DNA from: Phytoseiulus persimilis
Taxonomy: Eukaryota; Arthropoda; Arachnida; Mesostigmata; Phytoseiidae
DNA length: 64,000 nt
Assembly (NCBI GenBank): GCA_037576195.1
Contig: CM075102.1
Coordinates: 29,384,745 to 29,448,744, forward strand
Direction: 5' to 3'
The notes under the pieces are model-generated. The model was not told the DNA's origin. It worked only from the letters and a program-made list of their open reading frames with translations, and ran no database searches. Positions 12,147 to 54,706 of this stretch are shown here, piece after piece. Position numbers and translations under genes: made by a program. The first letter of the stretch is position 1, and the number at the start of each line of letters is the position of its first letter.

Positions 12147-12545
12147 ACAAGCTTGAGCGCTGGATGGAGCTGCTGCTTCCATCGCCAACGTGGGCCAAGG
12201 CTGACAAGGAGTGTGCACAAACTATACCACGCCGAGTTTTGTGATACATGAATGGGCATGTAGGGTGCGTAGGGAGTAATATGAGGGCGTATGGGACCTT
12301 TCCCCATGCTGCCTTGGGGTCTCAAGGAATGAAGATGAAATTCGTACAATCATCATCATAACATGCCTGAGCCCCACTCTAGAGTTACGTTCTCATGCTT
12401 CTCGGTCTCGAAACGGGCGAGAGTCGAGACTAAAGGAATCGATACAGTCTCGGCCTGATGCGTCACGTCGGCAGACGTCATCATACGAAAAAAATGCCCT
12501 ACCCGGCACCCAACTGGTTACAGACTAAAACAAGGAAAGGATGGA
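12147..12545 (+). repeat. Left inverted flank of the 12-16 kb element
   Basis: The reverse complement of this segment aligns along its length with 15,954-16,342, about 70-75% alike by eye. Its inner end runs into the start of the transposase-like frame. Confidence 0.6.
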
Positions 12546-13540
12546 ATGAGGTCAGAGAAACCTATTGCATTTCTTCACGGAAAATCACGAAGTTTATGAC
12601 CTATAGACACCATCAGAACCTCGGAGAAATCGAAAACCAATCAATGGAGGTAGTTCTCGATGATCAGGATAACACTTTGCCTCGTTTCGATACTGATGAA
12701 GTTTTCAAAACAAATCAGTCACCATTCAATTACATACCGACAGGACCTTGACCCACAACGGTTGAAGACACACGATTGTCATCAAAACTTCTCTGAACGC
12801 CCTCACCCATGGTTACACGACACAGCCGATTCCGAACATGAGCGGCGAGCTGGTTGGGAAGCTGTACGTGGATCTACAGGAGCCGAGCTGTGCTTTAGTC
12901 CCGTTAGCGTCAGTGACGTTGCCGAATCACCCGAACCTTCTGATAACGTGGCCGGATACCGGAGAAATTAAACAAAGGTCTCGTTCGGACCTGTCGTGAG
13001 CTTTTCGTTAGCGAAGTCGTCAACCGTCTGCCTTACCCAATATGCGTGCGAAAACCTTACGATCGATCTCTCTCGTGAGATTCGAGTTGGTTCTTTTCTG
13101 TTCATTGGGGAATCTCACAAGGATGGGCTCTCGAAGCGTTCATATAGATGCCCAGTTGTATAGCGTTACTCACAACGGAATCATGCTCAAGATTCCTTCG
13201 AAGGGTTCCAATGAGTCTGATCCAGCCCCTTGATATCTACTGCTTCATTCAGTGAGAGTACTCCGCCGAACGATTGACGGCACGATGTGCCTGCTCTGAC
13301 TATTGGATCAGCTGAACGACGCATTAAAACAGCACTCGCTGATCCACAACCAGTTCCCGCACCCTACCTTCCGACCGACGTGGATCTGCAGCTGACGCTA
13401 AGCGGGCTTCCTGGTGCCAGCAACCGTTTCCGAGCCTATATGTGAGCCTCGTTCGATGAACCATTCCAGTTCCGAATGCTCATTTTTCCCATTTATCGGA
13501 TGCGTTTCTCGTGAGCGGCCCCTGTAAGAAGAATGTTCCT
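12458..13540 (+). pseudogene. Decayed DDE transposase
   Basis: Pieces in several plus frames follow, in order, a transposase type that is multi-copy in arthropod genomes. A leading helix region at about 12,500-12,640 includes KITKFMTYR. The first catalytic block (usually TDQS.FNYE) appears as KTNQSPFNY near 12,705-12,731. Next come LNALTHGYTTQPIPNMSGEL and VGKLYVDLQEPS near 12,785-12,890, then IQPLDIY near 13,220-13,240 where the last acidic residue sits, then SLIHNQFPHPTF near 13,340-13,375 and a remnant Cys-rich tail. Stops and frame changes interrupt it and the first Asp is replaced by Asn, so it cannot be active. It probably belongs to the broad IS630/Tc1/pogo-related DDE group, but the family name is from memory and unverified. 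Confidence 0.6.
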
Positions 13541-13552
13541 TCGTGGATTACA

Positions 13553-15330
13553 CTGCCCGACAAAAAAATGTAACAAGGAAGCTGACACCTAGTCTTGGGG
13601 TGAATCGAGGTCGAACATCCCGAGTCCGTCAACCGCTTCCTCGGATTCGCTCTAGATTTTTTGTTATGCCGATTTTTCGGATTTTCATTATTTTTTCCAT
13701 GTTGGATTTCTCATCTCTGCTCCTGCGCGAGCCAGATCTGAGATGATTTGCGAGCAGGTAGAACCCGTTACAGAACTATCTCTGGTGAAAATTTCGTGCT
13801 ATTCGGAGCCACGGTCTCTGAGCTAGAAGAGATCAGAGGTCAAAATGCCTGCGGGGATAAGCGCCCCTTTTTTTTGGTCGGGCCGATTCCCTCCATGTTA
13901 TCCCGGCAGGCCCTTTCGTCGTTGAGCACCGAAAAACTGCCCCTTCTTCGGCGGAGAACGAAAACACTATAGCCCCCACAGCCAACTTCCATTGAGCTCT
14001 TTGACAGGAAATTCAATCGCGAACATTTCGAGACAAAGAGGAGCGTGATACGACGAGACATTCAGTTTTTATGCAGAAAAACGAAAGTCAGTGAAACTCG
14101 TCGGAACCAACAAAACATCTCGCGAGGGACTGGCTCGTGTGGGCCTGGCTCGAGTGGGCCTATCCGAGTCATCCCGTATCAGAGTCCAACAGTAGGCGGC
14201 CATAATGTGCACGTCCCATCTTCCCTGGTACCTCGCTTTCACTGTCGCTGTGTCTTTATGGAACCTTTCTCCTTGTTCATCACTCATAGCAATCAAATTT
14301 TTAGGGGAGCGTCCGAGATGGCTGAGCGCAGATAGTGAGTCTTGATCCCGACACCCTAGGACTCGAAAGCTCACGAGCATGTTCTTAACGAGTTGGACGC
14401 AGTTTCCAGCTCCCGTGTTCCCAGAGGAATTGTGAACGACCGGAACAAATGACCGCCAAGCATTGGCTTCTCGATGGCTCATGGAGTCAATGAAAACAGG
14501 TTCGTCGAGGAGCTTTCGGATTTGATGTCCATCCAAAACCCCCGCCTGAAGCATCACAGGATGCTTACAGCGTGCACTGTGCGCACGATTTAGTTGAAAC
14601 ATGAACCGTGCTTGTCCAATGCTACGACGAACTGTTTCATCGGACCCAATTTGATATGCCGCGGTGGAAGAAAGATTTTTTCCATCGGAACCGAAGCGCC
14701 TCTGAGCATGTTGGGCTGCCCAGGTCTCAGATATCCCCTTGAGAGCCAAACCGTTCGCTTCCAATGTTCGCCATCCGCTCGGCTGTCCCAAAGACAGAAG
14801 AAGCACGGGGTTTCGGTGTAACCGGCTCGTAGCCCTGAAATAATCGAGACCATCCTCTCGCTGTTCCCACACGTGATGCCGTGATTTTAGGTGAAGGAGT
14901 ATTTCCGTTGTTTCCACTTTTTGGCGATAAAAAGCTGAACGTATTTTCGGATCACGCTCAACTTTTTCTCAAGATGTCCGCGAATGAAATTCCCATCAAA
15001 AAGCTCAACTCGGCGGCTGAAGGAGAGGGAACTTTTCGGTGTTCTCCGACAAAAATTGACTTTTGATCTCTTCTAGCTCAGAGACCGTGGCTTCGAATTG
15101 CACAAAATGTTCACCAGGGATAGTTCTGTTATATGTTCACATGCTCCCGATTTTTATGAGCCTGGCTCACTTCAGGGCAGGGATTGAAATTTCCAACTGG
15201 AAAAAAAAATCGAAATAACGGAAAAACTAGAGTGAATTCGAGAAATCGGTTGAGAAATTCGGAATCTTAGACCCCGACTTACCCCAGCCCAGGTGTCAAC
15301 TTCTTCGTTACGCGGAAATATGTCGCCGAA
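13553..15330 (-). mobile_element. Element with long TIRs, inserted in the DDE transposon
   Basis: Bases 13,558-14,100 and 14,905-15,325 are inverted copies of each other. Matching landmarks include GACACCT near the outer ends and an exact shared run of 27 bases (13,813-13,839 against 15,063-15,089) that reads GAGCTAGAAGAGATC at its inner end; GAGCGTGAT is shared near the inner ends. The arms are about 420-540 bp and decayed. A minus-strand frame for a conserved arthropod protein spans the centre. The element sits just after the end of the older transposase coding region, so it arrived later. The superfamily is unknown to me. It is broken, with at least a few breaks. I found no convincing target duplication. 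Confidence 0.6.
14069..14917 (-). pseudogene. Element-encoded conserved protein, function unknown
   Basis: The longest frame here has 282 codons on the minus strand and contains MSDEQGERFH followed by RYQGRWDVHIMAAYCW, with VLDGHQIRKLLDEPVF and AWRSF upstream. An overlapping minus frame at 14,590-14,853 carries CFFCLWDSRADGEHW and FLPPRHIKLGPMKQF. Together these are the block order of a multi-copy arthropod protein that I recognise by pattern (HIKLGLMKQF, then GPQIR, then SDEQGERFHQD, then YQGRW, then DYCW). I know no established function for it. The copy is decayed and unlikely to be expressed as an intact protein. Its position between long inverted arms suggests it is the coding gene of this transposon type, but that is inference. 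Confidence 0.6.
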
Positions 15331-15953
15331 ACGGCACTTTTCAAGCCCGCTTCATAAAATGCGGGAACCAAACAGACTAGCGCATAGGGCATAGGCGGCG
15401 AGCCAGCGCAGGCAGAGAGAAGGAAGGCTTCAAGTAAACAGGGGCACGTGCCTCGAAAGGTCGGGGAGACCCTTAGCTATTGGAATCCGAACCTCAGAAC
15501 CCGAGCGCGGACCCTCTTCTGCACGGAGCAGTCCCACATGTTGGCGGCAGCCGTACTTGAAATAACGTTATCGACTCCCGCGATAGACACGCGCTGTATT
15601 CCTTAATATTTTCACAGAATCGAGTTGTAGGGATGAGTTCGTGGGGATTCAGAAAATGAGAGCCCTCTGTGTCGGTCTTTGAAGCTTGCATCGGATTCTT
15701 CATCAGCATCAGCAGGGAAACGACAGCTCCCACGAAACCATGACGCCCTTTTGATCAGATTTATTATCTCTCCTGTGAAGTCCGCCGCCGTGGAAACTTT
15801 GAATCCAAGCGCCGCGTCGTTCTCGCGACTCCGCTGCATGTTCGAGATCGCTCCCTGTGTCGGCGCGCTTTTCTAGCCTCAAGTCGCCCAAAACAGAGCT
15901 GCGGTAGCCAAACAGACTGCAACTCCATAAAGCTACTTCTGCTCCACCACACA

Positions 15954-16342
15954 TCATCCGCCCCTTGTTTCAGGCTGTAACCAGGTGAATACTGAATCGG
16001 TACTCTTTTCTTTCCAAATGACATCTCTCGACGTGAAGCATACGGCCTGGAATGTCTCGATTATCTTACTCGCGATTCTCACCCCATTCGAGATCGAAAA
16101 AGCATGAGAAAGTAGCTTCAGAAAGGGTCAAAGAGTGGTGATGATGATTCTACGAATTTCATCTTCATTTTCTGAGGCTCCAGGGCCGTATTGGGAAAAG
16201 TCCCGCCACGCCGCTGTCTGACCCCGACGCACCATACATGCCCATCCATGTATCATAAAAATCGGCGTGGTACAGTTAGTGCACACTCCTTCTGAGCGTA
16301 ACGGAGCCAGCGTTCGCGCCGAATCGTGGAGCGTTTCAAGTC
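15954..16342 (-). repeat. Right inverted flank of the 12-16 kb element
   Basis: This is the inverted partner of 12,147-12,545. The shared order includes ACCTGGTTACAG, the AATCATCATCA tract, ATGGGCATGTA and GGAGTGTGCAC, read on the minus strand. Confidence 0.6.
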
Positions 16343-24860: not shown

Positions 24861-25573
24861 CGCCATGTTGAACCTTTTAAGAACTCGTCTGATGCTTTCT
24901 GCCTGGTCGAGCATGATAGCCCTCTCCTCTAGCCTCTGCGTGATCTTAATTCCTAGACAGTACTGAGCCGGCCCCATATCTTTAATGGGGAAAACCCCCT
25001 TCAGTTTCTCGATGATCTCCGTTTGCAAACCCAGGTCGTTGGTGAAGATCAGGAAATCATCCACTTATATGGTCAGCAGCAGGATGCTTTTGCCGCGCGT
25101 TATGAAGTAGCAGCATTGGTCCGCCCCAAACTCTGTCAGGTCGAGAGACTTCAGTGCCTTATTGAGGGTTTCGAACCATACTCTTCCGGCTTGCTTCAGA
25201 TCATACAGAGACTTCTTTAGCAGGCATACCTGATCTCCGACCTGAAACATACTCGGCTGCTCCATGAATATCTCTTCCTCTGATCTGGCGTGTAGGTAAG
25301 CCGTCTCGACGTCGAGTTGGTGGATTCTCCATCCTTCCTGTGCGGCGCGCGCGAAAAGGATGCGGAGCGTTGTGATCTTTACTGCAGGCGAGTAGGTTTC
25401 ATCGAAGTCCACGCCTTTAGTTTGGGCGCATCCGCGTCCCACCAGTTTCGCCTTATATTTCGTGACCAGCCGGCCTTCGGCCGACTGGAGTCGGCCGCGC
25501 TCCGCGCGGTTGGACGGCGCTACTTGCGATCGAGGCACTTTTCTCTCTCCTCACTGGGTCAGCAATATGGTTT

Positions 25574-28500
25574 TGAAAAGTATGGTCAGATCGGTCCCCG
25601 GATCAGCCCCTCAGACTTGGAAAGTAATGGTCAGATTGGTCCCGGAATCACCCCTCCAGAGTTGGGAAGTAATGCTCAGATTGGTCTCGGAATCACCCCT
25701 CCAGAGTTGGGAAGTAATGCTCAGATTGCTCTCGGAATCACCCCTCCAGAGTTGGGAAGTAATGCTCAGATTGGTCTCGGAATCACCCCTCCAGAGTTGG
25801 AAAGTAATGCTCAGATTGACCCCGGAATCACCCCTCCAGAGTTAGAAAGAAATGCTCAGATTGGTCCCGGAATCACCCTTCCAGAGTTGGAAAGTAATGC
25901 TCAGATTGACCCCGGAATCACCCCTCCAGAGTTGGAAAGTAATGCTCAGATTGACCCCGGAATCACCGCTCTAGAGTTGGGTAGTAATGCTCAGATTGGT
26001 CTCGGAATCACCCCTCCAGAGTTAGAAAGAAATGCTCAGATTGGTCCCGGAATCACCCTTCCAGAGTTGGAAAGTAATGCTCAGATTGACCCCGGAATCA
26101 CCCCTCCAGAGTTGGAAAGTAATGCTCAGATTGACCCCGGAATCACCCCTCCAGAGTTAGAAAGAAATGCTCAGATTGGTCCCGGAATCACCCTTCCAGA
26201 GTTGGAAAGTAATGCTCAGATTGACCCCGGAATCACCCCTCCAGAGTTGGAAAGTAATGCTCAGATTGACCCCGGAATCACCGCTCTAGAGTTGAGAAGT
26301 AATGCTCAGATTGACCCCGGAATCACCCCTCCAGAGTTGGAAAGTAATGGTCAGATTGGTCTCGGAATCACCCCTCCAGAGTTGGAAAGTAATGCTCAGA
26401 TTGACCCCGGAATCACCGCTCTAGAGTTGGAAAGTAATGCTCAGATTGGTCTCGGAATCACCCCTCCAGAGTTGGGAAGTAATGCTCAGATTGGTCTCGG
26501 AATCACCCCTCCAGAGTTAGAAAGAAATGCTCAGATTGGTCCCGGAATCACCCTTCCAGAGTTGGAAAGTAATGCTCAGATTGACCCCGGAATCACCCCT
26601 CTAGAGTTGGAAAGTAATGCTCAGATTGACCCCGGAATCACCGCTCTAGAGTTGGGTAGTAATGCTCAGATTGGTCTCGGAATCACCCATCCAGAGTTAG
26701 AAAGAAATGCTCAGATTGGTCCCGGAATCTTCCTTCCAGAGTTGGAAAGTAATGCTCAGATTGACCCCGGAATCACCCCTCCAGAGTTGGAAAGTAATGC
26801 TCAGATTGACCCCGGAATCACCCCTCCAGAGTTAGAAAGAAATGCTCAGATTGGTCCCGGAATCACCCTTCCAGAGTTGGAAAGTAATGCTCAGATTGAC
26901 CCCGGAATCACCCCTCCAGAGTTGGAAAGTAATGCTCAGATTGACCCCGGAATCACCGCTCTAGAGTTGAGAAGTAATGCTCAGATTGACCCCGGAATCA
27001 CCCCTCCAGAGTTGGAAAGTAATGGTCAGATTGGTCTCGGAATCACCCCTCCAGAGTTGGAAAGTAATGCTCAGATTGACCCCGGAATCACCGCTCTAGA
27101 GTTGGAAAGTAATGCTCAGATTGGTCTCGGAATCACCCCTCCAGAGTTGGAAAGTAATGCTCAGATTGACCCCGGAATCACCCCTCCAGAGTTGGAAAGT
27201 AATGCTCAGATTGACCCCGGAATCACCCCTCCAGAGTTGGGAAGTAATGCTCAGATTGGTCTCGGAATCACCCCTCCAGAGTTGGAAAGTAATGCTCAGA
27301 TTGACCCCGGAATCACCCCTCCAGAGTTGGAAAGTAATGCTCAGATTGACCCCGGAATCACCCCTCCAGAGTTGGGAAGTAATGCTCAGATTGGTCTCGG
27401 AATCACCCCTCCAGAGTTGGAAAGTAATGCTCAGATTGACCCCGGAATCACCCCTCCAGAGTTAGAAAGAAATGCTCAGATTGGTCCCGGAATCACCCCT
27501 CCAGAGTTGGGTAGTAATGCTCAGATTGGTCTCGGAATCACCCCTCCAGAGTTAGAAAGTAATGGTCAGATTGGTCTCGGAATCACCCCTCCAGAGTTGG
27601 GAAGTAATGCTCAGATTGACCCCGGAATCACCCCTCCAGAGTTAGAAAGAAATGCTCAGATTGACCCCGGAATCACCCCTCCAGAGTTGGAAAGTAATGC
27701 TCAGATTGACCCCGGAATCACCCCTCCAGAGTTGGGAAGTAATGCTCAGATTAACCCCGGAATCACCCTTCCAGAGTTGGAAAGTAATGCTCAGATTGAC
27801 CCCGGAATCACCCCTCCAGAGTTGGAAAGTAATGCTCAGATTGACCCCGGAATCACCGCTCTAGAGTTGAGAAGTAATGCTCAGATTGACCCCGGAATCA
27901 CTCCTCCAGAGTTGGAAAGTAATGGTCAGATTGGTCTCGGAATCACCCCTCCAGAGTTAGAAAGAAATGCTCAGATTGGTCCCGGAATCACCCCTCCAGA
28001 GTTGGGAAGTAATGCTCAGATTGGTCTCGGAATCACCCCTCCAGAGTTAGAAAGTAATGCTCAGAATAACCCCGGAATCACCCTTCCAGAGTTGGAAAGT
28101 AATGCTCAGATTGGTCTCGGAATCACTCCTCCGGAGTTGGGGAGTAATGCTCAGATTGACCCCGGAATCACCCCTCCAGAGTTGGAAAGTAATGCTCAGA
28201 TTGGTCTCGGAATCACCCCTCCAGAGTTGGGAAGTAATGCTCAGATTGGCCCCGGAATCACCCCTCCAGAGTTGGGAAGTAATGCTCAGATTGACCCCGG
28301 AATCACCCCTCCAGAGTTAGAAAGTAATGCTCAGATTAACCCCGGAATCACCCCTCCAGAGTTGGGAAGTAATGCTCAGATTGCTCTCGGAATCACCCCT
28401 CCAGAGTTGGGAAGTAATGCTCAGATTGGTCTCGGAATCACCCCTCCAGAGTTGGAAAGTAATGCTCAGATTGACCCCGGAATCACCCCTCCAGAGTTAG

Positions 28501-29360
28501 AAAGAAATGCTCAGATTGGTCTCGGAATCACCCCTCCAGAGTTGGGAAGTAATGCTCAGATTGGTCTCGGAATCACTCCTCCAGAGTTGGGAAGTAATGC
28601 TCAGATTGGTCTCGGAATCACTCCTCCAGAGTTGGGAAGTAATGCTCAGATTGACCCCGGAATCACCCCTCCAGAGTTGGAAAGTAATGCTCAGATTGAC
28701 CCCGGAATCACCCCTCCAGAGTTGGGAAGTAATGCTTAGATTGGTCTCGGAATCACTCCTCCAGAGTTGGGAAGTAATGCTCAGATTGACCCCGGAATCA
28801 CCCCTCCAGAGTTGGGAAGTAATGCTCAGATTGGTCTCGGAATCACTCCTCCAGAGTTGGGAAGTAATGCTCAGATTGGTCTAGGAATCACTCCTCCAGA
28901 GTTGGAAAGTAATGCTCAGATTGACCCCGGAATCACTCCTCCAGAGTTGGGAAGTAATGCTCAGATTGACCCCGGAATCACTCCTCCAGAGTTGGAAAGT
29001 AATGCTCAGATTGACCCCGGAATCACCCCTCCAGAGTTGGGAAGTAATGCTTAGATTGGTCTCGGAATCACTCCTCCAGAGTTGGGAAGTAATGCTCAGA
29101 TTGACACCGGAATCACTCCTCCAGAGTTGGGAAGTAATGCTAAGATCGGTCTCGGAATCACCCCTCCAGAGTTGGGAAGTAATGCTCAGATTGGTCTCGG
29201 AATCACTCCTCCAGAGTTGGGAAGTAATGCTCAGATTGGTCTCGGAATCACTCCTCCAGAGTTGGGAAGTAATGCTCAGATTGACCCCGGAATCACCCCT
29301 CCAGAGTTGGGAAGTAATGCTCAGATTGGTTCTAGAATCACCCCTCCAGCTTTTGAAAAG
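25574..29360. repeat. 45-bp minisatellite, about 83 copies
   Basis: A 45-bp unit is repeated head to tail for about 3.8 kb with very high similarity. The unit as written contains CCTCCAGAGTTGG, AGTAATGCTCAGATTG and CTCGGAATCA. Variation is limited to a few positions that come in linked forms, giving higher-order patterns; the block starting near 26,021 recurs at 26,696, exactly 675 bp (15 units) later. Because 45 is a multiple of three, frames stay open on both strands, including 1,140 codons on the plus strand with a 15-residue repeat around ELGSNAQIGLGITPP. I regard this as a consequence of the repeat, not evidence of a protein. Diverged edge units occur at 25,574-25,640 and 29,330-29,460. 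It lies inside the copia element. Confidence 0.95.
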
Positions 29361-29530: not shown

Positions 29531-30479
29531 ATATAGTAAGGATAAGGATGTCTCCTTCGCTGTTCCGTTTCAATTGGAAAACCCACTTCGAGGTTATCAC
29601 TCGCCTGTTTGATGGGCGATCGATCAGAATCCAGGTTCCGTTCTTTTCATGGGCCTTCATTTCGGTCTCCATGGCTGATCTCCACCGCTCGGCGTCTGCC
29701 CGCAACATCGCCTCCTGTACCGTGAGTGGTGAATCGTAGTTCGTTGTCGAATTTTGACAGCATACACACACGAATTCGTCCATCCACGCTGGCCGGGTCC
29801 GTTTTCGGTTAGGGCGGAACTCCAAGAACCCTGTTGGCTCGACTGGTTTTTCACCACTCTCATCACCTGTAAAAATACTTTCCTCATCTGAAGCCGCCGC
29901 TCCCGGTAGTCTTCCGGGTAAAATCATCAACAAACACAATGAAGTAGCGGTGCCTCCCGATGCTCACTCGACTCATTGGACCACATACATCGCTGTGCAC
30001 GAGTTCCAATCTTGATTTCGTGCCAAAATTGGACTTTGGGAATTCTTTCCTCCTCTGCTTCCCCCCTGCACATGGCCAACACGTTTGCTGGTGTCAGGGA
30101 CCACGCAATCAACGCCTTTCACAAGCCCCTTAGCTAGTTTCTTCACTCCTCCTGGTCCAAGATGGCCCAACCTCCTGAGCCAAAGATCGTACGCAGCGTA
30201 CGTCGAAGCAGTCAAGGCAGTCGTAGAACATGCTTGCAAGCGGTGAAGGTCAGTGTCCGTGCAGCAAGCTGTCGCACACACCATCCCCTCTTTGGCCAAG
30301 ATCTCGCACTTTTTATCTTTGAAAACGACGTTGAGCCCCTTTTTCGTCAGCTGTTTTACCGATACCAAGTTAACTGTATGTCCGGGCACGTACAATACAT
30401 CCCGTAACCTGGTATTTTGACACTTTCCACCAATATAACAACTTATGCGGACGTCTCCAAGCCCGGCCGACTGAAGGAT

Positions 30480-31793
30480 CTCGTTATTTGTAACAAACCG
30501 AGTGCGAGCGTCCTGATTGAAAAAAAAGAAACAACTCCTCTGTCCGGTCATATGCAAACTTGCCCCGGAGTCGATGAACCAATCGAACGGTGAACTTGAC
30601 GCGACCCTGGCTGTTGATGGGCATACAAGAACCCGCTCGAAATGCACGAACTCGGTTTGATTCTCGTTGGAATCGCGCGCTTCCGCAGATCTTTCCTCTC
30701 TCGCTTCGTAGGCAACCTTCCCGTGATCTGCACCCCTCCAACAGTTTCTTGCCAGATGTCCGTGTTTTCCACACTTGAAACATTGTGGTAACCCTTCGTA
30801 CGACCGTGCTCTTGATGGCTGACTGCGACCATGATCTACACGTCCTCCTCTCACTTGTCGACGTCCATGACCACGATAACCGTAGTTTAACTTTAATCCC
30901 ATCAGAGCTGATTCACGCTTTTGTGAGGCTTGTCTCGCGGCTTCACTCAGCAGCCTCTCCTTCACGAGCTCAGTTGTGACCTCACTCTGGGTGATGCTTT
31001 GAATCAGGGGTGAAAACTCTTCTGGGAGCTTCATCAGGATGAGCCCCGCCAAAAGTCGGTCTTTGATGTCTGCGTCGATGGCTCGGAGACGCTGGGCCGC
31101 CGTGATCTTCTTGTTGATATACGTCTCCATGTCTGGACAATCCGTATATTCGATGCTCGTCAGGTCCTCAAGGAGTGCCACCTCCCGATAGATCCCACAA
31201 GACTGATAAAGTTTCTCGAGTGTTCTCCAGATCTCCTTCCCAGATGTGGCGTCCCGAATCGACGAGAACAAGTGGCTTTTGATTCCCGAGATGATGGCGC
31301 CCCTAGCGCGCTTGTTCTGATGGGCATCTATTTTCGACCCATCAACATACTCCCAGAGATCACAGTTGAACAGATGCGCCTCCATGGCAAATCTCCAGTC
31401 CATGTAGTTAGTTGCTTCATCCAATTTCTCGAATGATGATGGTACGCTTACCATCGTTGTCATCGTGGATGTTTCAGTCAGCTCACTGGCTCGAGGCTCG
31501 ATGGGAACCTCAAGGTCGAATAGGAGCGCAGATTGTGCAGATTTCTTCGATGGCTGTGATGATGCCTCCTCCTCGTCGATGAAAGTAGTTTTCGGTGGAG
31601 CTCGCTTTCGCAGAACTGTAATCTCCTCCCGGGATAGTGGCGATTCCACGTCAACGCTCTTCATTCCCTCGGATTCGGGTTGTTTCCGCATGTTTCGGCC
31701 TATCGGTCCACGAGACACTTTCGCACGAGTATTTTCTTCACGTGCCACAGCCGCAAGCGCGACTTTCCGTCTCGTCACTCGTCCTGGGCCCAT
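30480..31793 (-). other. Gag and protease part of the copia element
   Basis: The minus frame from 31,793 contains a gag region with copia-type blocks (DWRFAMEAHL, then LWEYV), a CCHC zinc knuckle and an aspartic protease active-site block WFIDSGASLHMTG. It starts directly beside the primer-binding site. It is described as part of a fossil; no host role is implied. Confidence 0.85.
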
Positions 31794-31797
31794 AACC
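31784..31797 (-). other. Primer-binding site, tRNA-iMet half-molecule type
   Basis: The minus-strand sequence GGTTATGGGCCCAG directly follows the 5' LTR. It is the classic copia primer site, which matches an internal part of initiator methionine tRNA rather than its 3' end. Confidence 0.85.
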
Positions 31798-31919
31798 TGT
31801 TAAGTTACTGCAGGGATGAACAACGCCAGTGATACAGATATACAACGAAGTGAAGATTATTTCCAAAACGAAAATCCTTTTATAGCACTCTGGACCGTGA
31901 GCATGCGCAAAACCCAACA
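31798..31919 (-). repeat. 5' LTR of the copia element
   Basis: This is the right copy on the plus strand, 122 bp, differing from the left copy at three positions. It has the same TATA box and AATAAA. It is followed by the GTAAT target duplication at 31,920-31,924. Confidence 0.93.
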
Positions 31920-52777: not shown

Positions 52778-52795
52778 CTCCAACGACGGGGCGCT

Positions 52796-54706
52796 ATGGC
52801 CTCGACGAATCCCCCGCTGCTGCTGAGTGGGACCGTGGTGCCGACACCGGAAACGAGCACTGCGACGTTCTACTCCGGTCCTAAAATCTGGGAAAAAGCT
52901 TTAAACTATACAATTCTGCAAGTCAACCTTGACAATGTCGTCCAGACGAACAACGACAGTGTCACGACGACGCTGCTCGGCGTTCTCAACGACACGATGG
53001 CCGGAACGATGGCGGGGGCCAACGGCACAGGATCTGCGGCGAACGATGCGTTACACACAAACCTCGAATTCATCCTGATCGCGTTCATGGGAGCGTTCTT
53101 CTCCATAATCACCATCGTCGGCAACCTTATGGTGATGATCAGCATCAAGATGGACAAGCAGCTTCAAACGATATCAAATTACTTTCTCCTGAGTTTGGCG
53201 ATAGCCGATTTCTCGATAGGGATCATATCGATGCCCTTGTCGACGTACTACATGCTCTACAACTACTGGTATCTAGGTCCGTTCATGTGCGACACCTGGC
53301 TAGCGTGGGACTACCTTACGAGTAATGCGTCAGTGCTGAATCTGTTAATCATTTCGTTCGATAGATACTTTTCGGTGACGCGTCCGTTAACGTATCGAGC
53401 GTTTCGCACAACGAGACGTTCCGCCCGGTGGATAGCGATCGCGTGGGTGATATCATTGTTGTTGTGGCCTCCGTGGATCTACGCCTGGCCTTATATCGAA
53501 GGGAAACGATCCGTGCCCGAGGGACAGTGCTATATCCAGTTCTTCGAGACGAACATTTACGTCACGTTCGGCACGGCGTTGGCGGCCTTCTACATTCCAG
53601 TGTGTGTAATGTGTATACTCTACTGGCGGATTTGGCAGGAAACCGAGAAACGTCAACGAGATCTGACGCATCTCCAGGCGGGCAAAGGTATCCCATCTTC
53701 CAGCGGCTGCAGACGCAACAAGTCCGGCGAGCTCGGGCTCGGGGGAGGGAACGGCGGCGGCGGCAACTTCAATCAATTAGCCGGAGACGGTGGGAATCAG
53801 CTCGATCACAACAATCGGACAGCGAGCACTTTGTGTTTGGAAACCGGTCGGTATCTCCCTTCGTCGTCGTCGGCGGCGGCAATAGACGCCTCAGCAGCGG
53901 CAAATCTCAGGGGGGGCAATTCACGGACGGCGCCTAACAAGCAACGCAGAAGCCTCAGAGACGTGCTGTTCGCTTGGTGTCGCAGCGACAAGGTGCACGA
54001 CGATGACTCGTGCTCGAGCCACGGGTCGCCAAATGCCCAAACACCGACCTCGGCAGAAACGCCCATTAGAGCTGACAGCATGCAGTACAAGCCGCTGCAG
54101 AACATTCCTCTGACGGACAGGCAGCACCAAACCTCGACGCGCTCGTTCTCGAGCGACTCCGTCTACACGATCCTTATCCGACTGCCGACTCAGACGAGCG
54201 TCGATCTCGACGGTGAGATGTCCCAGGCGTCGATCCGGATGATTCTCGAGGACGACGGACCACCTCCGTGCCAGTCGACGAAGCCGATCCCTCGCAGCAA
54301 GTCGGCGTCTAGTAACGCGCCCTCGCGCGAGCCTCTGCTGCTGAACACGAAGCTCGTTGCTCAACAGGCAACGAAACGTTTGCCCAAGAAGAAACGGAAA
54401 CATCAGGAGCGAAAGCAGGAAAGGAAGGCTGCCAAGACTCTATCGGCCATCCTGCTGGCGTTTATCGTCACTTGGACGCCGTACAACGTTCTTGTGCTCA
54501 TCAAGACGCTCAGCCCTTGCGACGATGACAATGACTGCATACCTCAGGGCTTGTGGAACTTTGCCTATTGTCTCTGTTACATAAACAGCACAGTGAACCC
54601 GCTGTGCTACGCGTTATGCAACGCAAATTTCCGTCGGACGTACGTGCGGATCCTCACCTGTAAATGGCACACGAAAAAACAGCGTCATCGAGGCTACTTC
54701 AGTTGA
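52796..54706 (+). CDS. mAChR-A: Muscarinic acetylcholine receptor, A-type
   Basis: This encodes a 636-residue class A G-protein-coupled receptor for acetylcholine at the plasma membrane. The N-terminus carries possible glycosylation sites (N37, N53, N65, N76). Membrane segments fall at about 90-114 (N110), 127-150 (D138), 163-188, 211-232, 254-277 (P268), 547-571 and 582-606. The amine-binding Asp172 and Tyr173, then S176 and N177, and DRY at 189-191 are present. Thr257, Thr260 and Ala264 in helix 5, W560, Y563 and N564 in helix 6, and Y591, C594, Y595 and NPLCY (601-605) in helix 7 complete the muscarinic pocket. C165 and C245 form the usual disulphide. The third intracellular loop is long (about 278-546), with Gly- and Ser-rich runs. 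The stretch LLIISFDRYFSVTRPLTYR and the WPYIEGKR loop match arthropod A-type, which in insects signals through Gq. The whole coding region is in one exon. The ATG context (GCTATGG) is good and it is the first in-frame ATG without a stop. Confidence 0.97.
   Translation: MASTNPPLLLSGTVVPTPETSTATFYSGPKIWEKALNYTILQVNLDNVVQTNNDSVTTTLLGVLNDTMAGTMAGANGTGSAANDALHTNLEFILIAFMGAFFSIITIVGNLMVMISIKMDKQLQTISNYFLLSLAIADFSIGIISMPLSTYYMLYNYWYLGPFMCDTWLAWDYLTSNASVLNLLIISFDRYFSVTRPLTYRAFRTTRRSARWIAIAWVISLLLWPPWIYAWPYIEGKRSVPEGQCYIQFFETNIYVTFGTALAAFYIPVCVMCILYWRIWQETEKRQRDLTHLQAGKGIPSSSGCRRNKSGELGLGGGNGGGGNFNQLAGDGGNQLDHNNRTASTLCLETGRYLPSSSSAAAIDASAAANLRGGNSRTAPNKQRRSLRDVLFAWCRSDKVHDDDSCSSHGSPNAQTPTSAETPIRADSMQYKPLQNIPLTDRQHQTSTRSFSSDSVYTILIRLPTQTSVDLDGEMSQASIRMILEDDGPPPCQSTKPIPRSKSASSNAPSREPLLLNTKLVAQQATKRLPKKKRKHQERKQERKAAKTLSAILLAFIVTWTPYNVLVLIKTLSPCDDDNDCIPQGLWNFAYCLCYINSTVNPLCYALCNANFRRTYVRILTCKWHTKKQRHRGYFS

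Follow-up and report, generated by a model that had tools for sequence, protein, structure and literature searches.

A decayed, long-armed transposon of probable Chapaev3 type in the genome of Phytoseiulus persimilis

The stretch of Phytoseiulus persimilis DNA analysed here (64,000 nucleotides of contig CM075102.1, hereafter the window) carries, with a probability of roughly 0.84, a cut-and-paste transposon of the Chapaev3 type (CMC/CMCT), in the form of a decayed copy with an internal deletion. This would most likely be a new Chapaev3 family, an assignment made on the diagnostic features as they have been described for the group and not by alignment with a Chapaev3 protein. The SDEQGERFH protein type that it carries is multi-copy across arthropods, where it appears under 'uncharacterised protein' labels. 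A preliminary description of the window had proposed that the protein belongs to a transposon with long inverted repeats, of a class that may be undescribed. The first part of that interpretation stands, as the protein is part of a transposon that is present in many copies, has long inverted repeats at its ends and makes a constant target duplication. The second part is unsupported, because the ends, the TWA duplication and the protein motifs match those published for Chapaev3 (PMC4079192); the protein type therefore probably belongs to a superfamily that already has a name.

In the window, a minus-strand frame containing SDEQGERFH, YQGRW and YCW is flanked on both sides by long inverted arms, the whole running from 13551 to about 15321 (Table 1). 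When aligned with each other the two arms give a piece of 275 nt at 73% identity (E 9e-40), together with two shorter inner pieces. When the element's outer 600 bp are compared with each other in reverse complement the score is 148 bits, as against at most 31 bits for 55 other stretches of the window and at most 27 bits for 60 Markov-1 resamples, which bears out the earlier placing of the frame between inverted arms. The limits first proposed were also right to within a few bases, the left end lying 2 bp before the start given there and the right arm falling about 9 bp short. The left end carries the terminal motif exactly, and at up to one mismatch this is its sole match in the window; at least one such match is also obtained in 19 of 100 shuffles.

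Table 1. Features of the element and of the adjoining repeats, in window positions.
Feature	Position	Strand	Basis
Left target-site duplication TTA, with A (13547) in front	13548..13550	+	sequence; right-hand duplication absent in window
Left terminal motif CACTGCCCGACA	13551..13562	+	sequence
Left terminal inverted arm, including ~69 bp (13845-13913) absent from other copies	13551..14081	+	arm alignments
Open frame of 299 residues, putative C-terminal transposase part, pseudogene	14072..14968	-	SDEQGERFH, YQGRW, YCW; tblastn
Frame of 98 residues, upstream piece (GYTETPCFFCLWDSR, PPRHIKLG), in a different frame from the rest	14590..14886	-	2 stops
Junction where ~736 bp of internal N-terminal coding sequence are gone relative to copy L018	14857..14885	.	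copy alignment
Right terminal inverted arm, tip absent	14918..15321	+	arm alignments
Third repeat, ~600 bp, which adjoins the element and cuts off its right tip	15322..15923	.	matches elsewhere
Surrounding repeat with long inverted arms, hosting the insertion	12200..16297	.	arms 12200-12552, 15946-16297

Relatives were sought in the species' own genome (181 Mb in 127 contigs). This genome has 112 matches to Chitin_bind_4, a typical domain of cuticle proteins in arthropods, in keeping with an arthropod host; 14 control genomes gave no such match. The whole element matched 183 candidate places, 40 of which were scored, and the protein matched 163, of which 131 were scored. Forty loci, the window copy counted in, were fetched. 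These were chosen among the top whole-element matches and are therefore biased towards complete copies, so that the shares given here are an upper view. An arm of at least 50 nt is kept on the left in 38 of the 40 loci, on the right in 32 and on both sides in 31, and inverted flanks thus recur in this genome. An intact full-length transposase frame is present in none of the scored matches. In a distant copy, L111, decay has gone too far for ends or arms to be visible. At a further place (G000:C1:6297921-6304339) the end motif and a fragment of the protein each occur four times, regularly spaced about 1.82 kb apart, and here a piece of the transposon seems to lie within a tandem array.

Both ends of the element carry the motif CACTGCCCGACA, which is followed by a variable, A-rich stretch. 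Allowing up to three mismatches, we placed 35 left ends and 21 right ends among the 40 loci, the remaining ends being missing or too decayed to place; 19 copies have both. In 13 of these 19 the flanking three bases are identical (TWA in 11, TCA in one and TAT in one), and in the other six they are not. When flank partners were shuffled, an average of 5.2 copies had identical flanks, and 13 was reached in none of 10,000 shuffles. The constant target duplication expected of a transposon is therefore found, with a length of 3 bp. Taking the 56 ends singly, the flank is TWA in 40 and TNA in 46, with an A immediately outside in 48. The end motif with ATWA in front, ATWACACTGCCCGACA, occurs exactly at 41 sites genome-wide, while its reversed control occurs at none.

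Empty sites give a direct view of the target. Two copies of the surrounding repeat (L109 and L110) read GTGGATTATCATT unbroken, that is, ATTAT, at the position where in the window GTGGATTA is followed by the element. Likewise, when the flanks of copy L020 are joined they match four related stretches in which TTA or TCA is present once at the junction; two of these lie in L025, one in L036 and one in the flank of L020 itself. From these sites it follows that insertion used a site of the A-TWA-T type, with the middle three bases duplicated.

The two arms of a copy align in one piece in 13 of the 19 two-ended copies, starting near the tips, with the left reaching to 457-478 bp and the right to 471-490 bp, in agreement with the 0.4-0.5 kb of the preliminary description; in the other six they align in pieces or in part. 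The one-piece pairs are 72-80% alike, whereas left arms of other copies mostly share 82-86% identity with the left arm in the window. As left arms from different copies are more alike than the two arms of a single copy, the divergence between arms probably predates the copies and was already present in their source.

The two-ended copies range from 1,473 to 2,500 bp and fall largely into size classes, with four at 1,741-1,774, five at 1,936-1,949, two at 2,224-2,226 and four at 2,470-2,500 bp; four copies lie outside these classes, one of them at 2,397 bp. Such classes would fit deletion derivatives that relied for their movement on a transposase from another source. Two copies of 2.22 kb, L029 and L033, are 98% alike in protein and yet lie at different places, which suggests that some movement was later than the rest.

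The coding part is best kept towards its C-terminus, with 320-349 residues in the best copies, L033, L029 and L020. An N-terminal frame of 210 residues with a CYFC pair is whole in one long copy only, L023, and pieces of it lie at eleven other places. Together with the stretch between them, these frames suggest a full transposase of about 600 residues. Conservation was counted as the identical residue among the copies covering each position, with frames taken by tblastn from the 40 loci. Numbered after L033, the candidate catalytic aspartates are kept in 19 of 20 (Asp 14, D1) and 23 of 25 copies (Asp 68, D2). The C(2)C pair, Cys 87 and Cys 90, is kept in 31 and 33 of 36, His 136 of the LH motif in 30 of 36, and the H(4)H pair, His 244 and His 249, in 33 and 36 of 38. 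The candidate catalytic glutamate lies within SDEQGERFH and would be that of SDE (Glu 263, kept in 36 of 38) or that of GER (Glu 266, kept in 29 of 38, with Gly in six).

Codon positions 1, 2 and 3 have single-difference rates of 0.066, 0.063 and 0.089 over 595 pairs from 35 copies, five of the 40 having been dropped for having fewer than 200 codons and codons with two or three differences being left uncounted. This mild third-position excess is as would be expected from past selection together with decay.

Searches for relatives of the protein were negative. Six frames (two from the window, three from better copies and the N-terminal one) matched no Pfam family, at E up to 10 for the five catalytic-part frames; the L023 N-terminal frame also lacks a Pfam match, its CYFC pair notwithstanding. 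Among solved structures neither phmmer nor a profile found a match. An AlphaFold2 model built from 17 rows, of which some run out of frame towards the ends, has a pLDDT of 37.6 and a pTM of 0.23. Strands and helices follow one another in it much as they do in an RNase H core, but the model is too poor to use or to count as evidence, and the DDE reading is for this reason without support from the fold. Among viral contigs, the search by protein returned three stretches that fit a pattern and no relative, and motif patterns returned 0, 0 and 7 stretches, the seven no better than E 0.027. A pattern derived from the alignment found 61 stretches in prokaryote genomes and no relative. One motif pattern matched 24 prokaryote stretches, the best of which (L088), with an E of 0.003 over 125 aligned positions, was put down to chance.

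Filing the element under Chapaev3 follows from its ends, from a TWA duplication lying between A and T, and from the C(2)C, LH and H(4)H motifs, all of which match the published description and are seen across the copies, the motifs by inspection. Zhang and colleagues describe for Chapaev3 5'-CAC and GTG-3' ends, the same three motifs, and TWA duplications, borne out by empty sites, that have an A on the 5' side and a T on the 3' side (PMC4079192). The families Merrow, Garfield and Conan share with the element here the CAC..GTG ends, the A-TWA-T target, the motifs and a similar length (PMC4079192). Two-exon copies measure 2,289-2,291 bp in Garfield and 2,451-2,455 bp in Merrow, the exceptions being one Garfield copy (2,092 bp) and one Merrow copy (1,922 bp) with a short second exon, and the Conan entries are given as 1,865 and 3,363 (PMC4079192). 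The present element differs from these families in sequence and host, and its predicted protein of about 600 residues compares with 556 in Garfield, 562 in Merrow (two exons summed) and 461 in Conan (PMC4079192). At about 480 bp its arms may be atypical of Chapaev3, for which the text of PMC4079192 used here states no arm lengths. An N-terminal Chapa zinc finger has also been described as a Chapaev3 feature (PMC4411706).

More broadly, Kojima characterises the CMCT clade by ends of the form 5'-CA..TG-3' and, in the protein, by C(2)C and H(3-4)H pairs that fall after the second Asp and before the Glu (PMC12730594). Such ends are common to most CMCT lineages, as here, and the C(2)C and H(3-4)H pairs are likewise shared with Transib and RAG1 (PMC12730594). 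Transib, however, makes duplications of 5 bp (PMC4411706), compared with 3 bp here. Against the Chapaev3 reading stand the silence of Pfam and of the solved structures, with no sequence tie to any named transposase, the six two-ended copies without identical duplications, and the survival of a whole N-terminal frame in a single copy, L023.

EnSpm elements have a less strict target than Chapaev3. An animal EnSpm/CACTA family is the nearest rival to Chapaev3, and we judge it very improbable. It would account for the CACTG..CAGTG ends and the 3-bp duplications, and its C(2)C and H(3-4)H pairs are also shared with the element here, these motifs being common across CMCT (PMC12730594). Fungal families filed under EnSpm on the strength of 5'-CAC..GTG-3' ends and 3-bp duplications provide a precedent (PMC12730594). 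The strict A-TWA-T target (A outside in 48 of 56 ends, TWA in 40 of 56) is nevertheless a published trait of Chapaev3 (PMC4079192) and fits that group better, and no Pfam transposase matched the element. Neither PF02992 (Transposase_21) nor KDZ has a match in the species' own genome, which tells little, as these searches were silent in their control genomes too. The SDEQGERFH proteins might instead form a separate, unnamed CMCT branch, sister to Chapaev3, with inverted arms of about 0.5 kb. The family library and the solved structures gave no match, and the strings SDEQGERFH, DEQGERFHQD and SDEHGERFH were not found in the open-licence literature searched, which speaks for such a branch. With the ends, the duplication, the target and the motifs of Chapaev3 all present, we consider this reading improbable, and Pfam possibly holds no Chapaev3 model at all.

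A PIF/Harbinger element, which we regard as scarcely credible, would agree with the TWA duplications found here, since PIF/Harbinger duplications are TWA as well. To our knowledge, Harbinger transposases have Pfam models and lack the C(2)C and H(4)H pairs. The five catalytic-part frames found no Pfam match at E up to 10, a result that weighs little against Harbinger because no other family matched either. The 3-bp length is also that of PIF/Harbinger (PMC12730594), but C(2)C and H(4)H pairs placed, as here, after the second Asp and before the Glu are traits of CMCT (PMC12730594). The long arms led us to consider a Mutator-like element as well. Target duplications of that group are 8-9 bp long. 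This candidate was rejected, as identity at 4, 5 or 6 bp is seen in none of the 19 copies and the 8-bp flanks are not repeated.

Under the Chapaev3 reading, complete members would measure about 2.4-2.7 kb, with a single gene of about 600 codons flanked by imperfect inverted arms, each about 480 bp long. The product would be a DDE transposase with its first two catalytic residues in F-L-D-S-S and V-C-x-D-L-K and, judging by the motifs, a glutamate within SDEQGERFH as its last; the C(2)C and H(4)H pairs would bind zinc. The enzyme may bind the arms and cut at the CACTG ends, and insertion into ATWAT with a 3-bp stagger would produce the TWA duplications. The sequence itself documents the ends, the stagger and the target, and the chemistry of the enzyme is proposed from its motifs. 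Deletion derivatives would presumably be mobilised in trans.

The window copy itself is much reduced. Between query positions 1305 and 1333, where copy L018 has 763 bp, it has 27 bp. Its left arm also contains an extra stretch, at which the matches of other copies stop (query 290-292) and restart (362). When the L020 frame is compared with the window by tblastn, residues 191-337 match in the 299-residue frame and residues 85-188 in another frame, and because the match is split in this way we regard the copy as frameshifted. The upstream coding piece has two stops within its matching stretch (query 76-189), and the H(4)H stretch is garbled. The expected right end, TGTCGGGCAGTG, is not found in the window copy, whose right tip and right duplication are lost where the third repeat begins, at about 15322. 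With some 736 bp of internal sequence lost, a frameshift and no right tip, the copy is to judge from its letters dead and should not be able to move.

Elsewhere in the genome the arms of the surrounding repeat, each about 350 bp long, are matched in pairs that extend over about 2.58 kb (C2:4104565-4107142, C1:43339097-43341680, C3:23285927-23288514 and C4:9760607-9763193). Four of its frames have no Pfam match. Beyond the third repeat it restarts at 15924, with 47 bp of its sequence missing. The third repeat has ten other matches, running from query 12-23 to 618-630 at 66-89% identity; about 100-150 bp from each of its two ends are also present where the middle is lacking, often paired on one strand.

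Further along the window are the remains of a Copia-type retrotransposon (29976-31799), with gag, Pol_BBD and a zinc knuckle. Beside them a tandem repeat with a 45-bp unit gives an open frame of 1147 residues (25296-28736), and the same tandem repeat adjoins the element copies L025, L029, L030, L031 and L039. The frame at 23981-24814 matches no Pfam family, and by eye we take it to be copia-like. At 52778-54703 an open frame of 642 residues encodes a rhodopsin-type receptor (7tm_1, E 1.4e-65), whose long third inner loop is similar to that of a muscarinic receptor.

If the Chapaev3 reading is right, a protein type that is unnamed in the scanned libraries would be the transposase of a known group, and a distant relative of the ancestor of RAG1. 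It should then be masked as a repeat and not counted as a host gene family. What the element adds would be no new class of transposon; it would be a long-arm family of Chapaev3 with an ATWAT target that is shown by empty sites.
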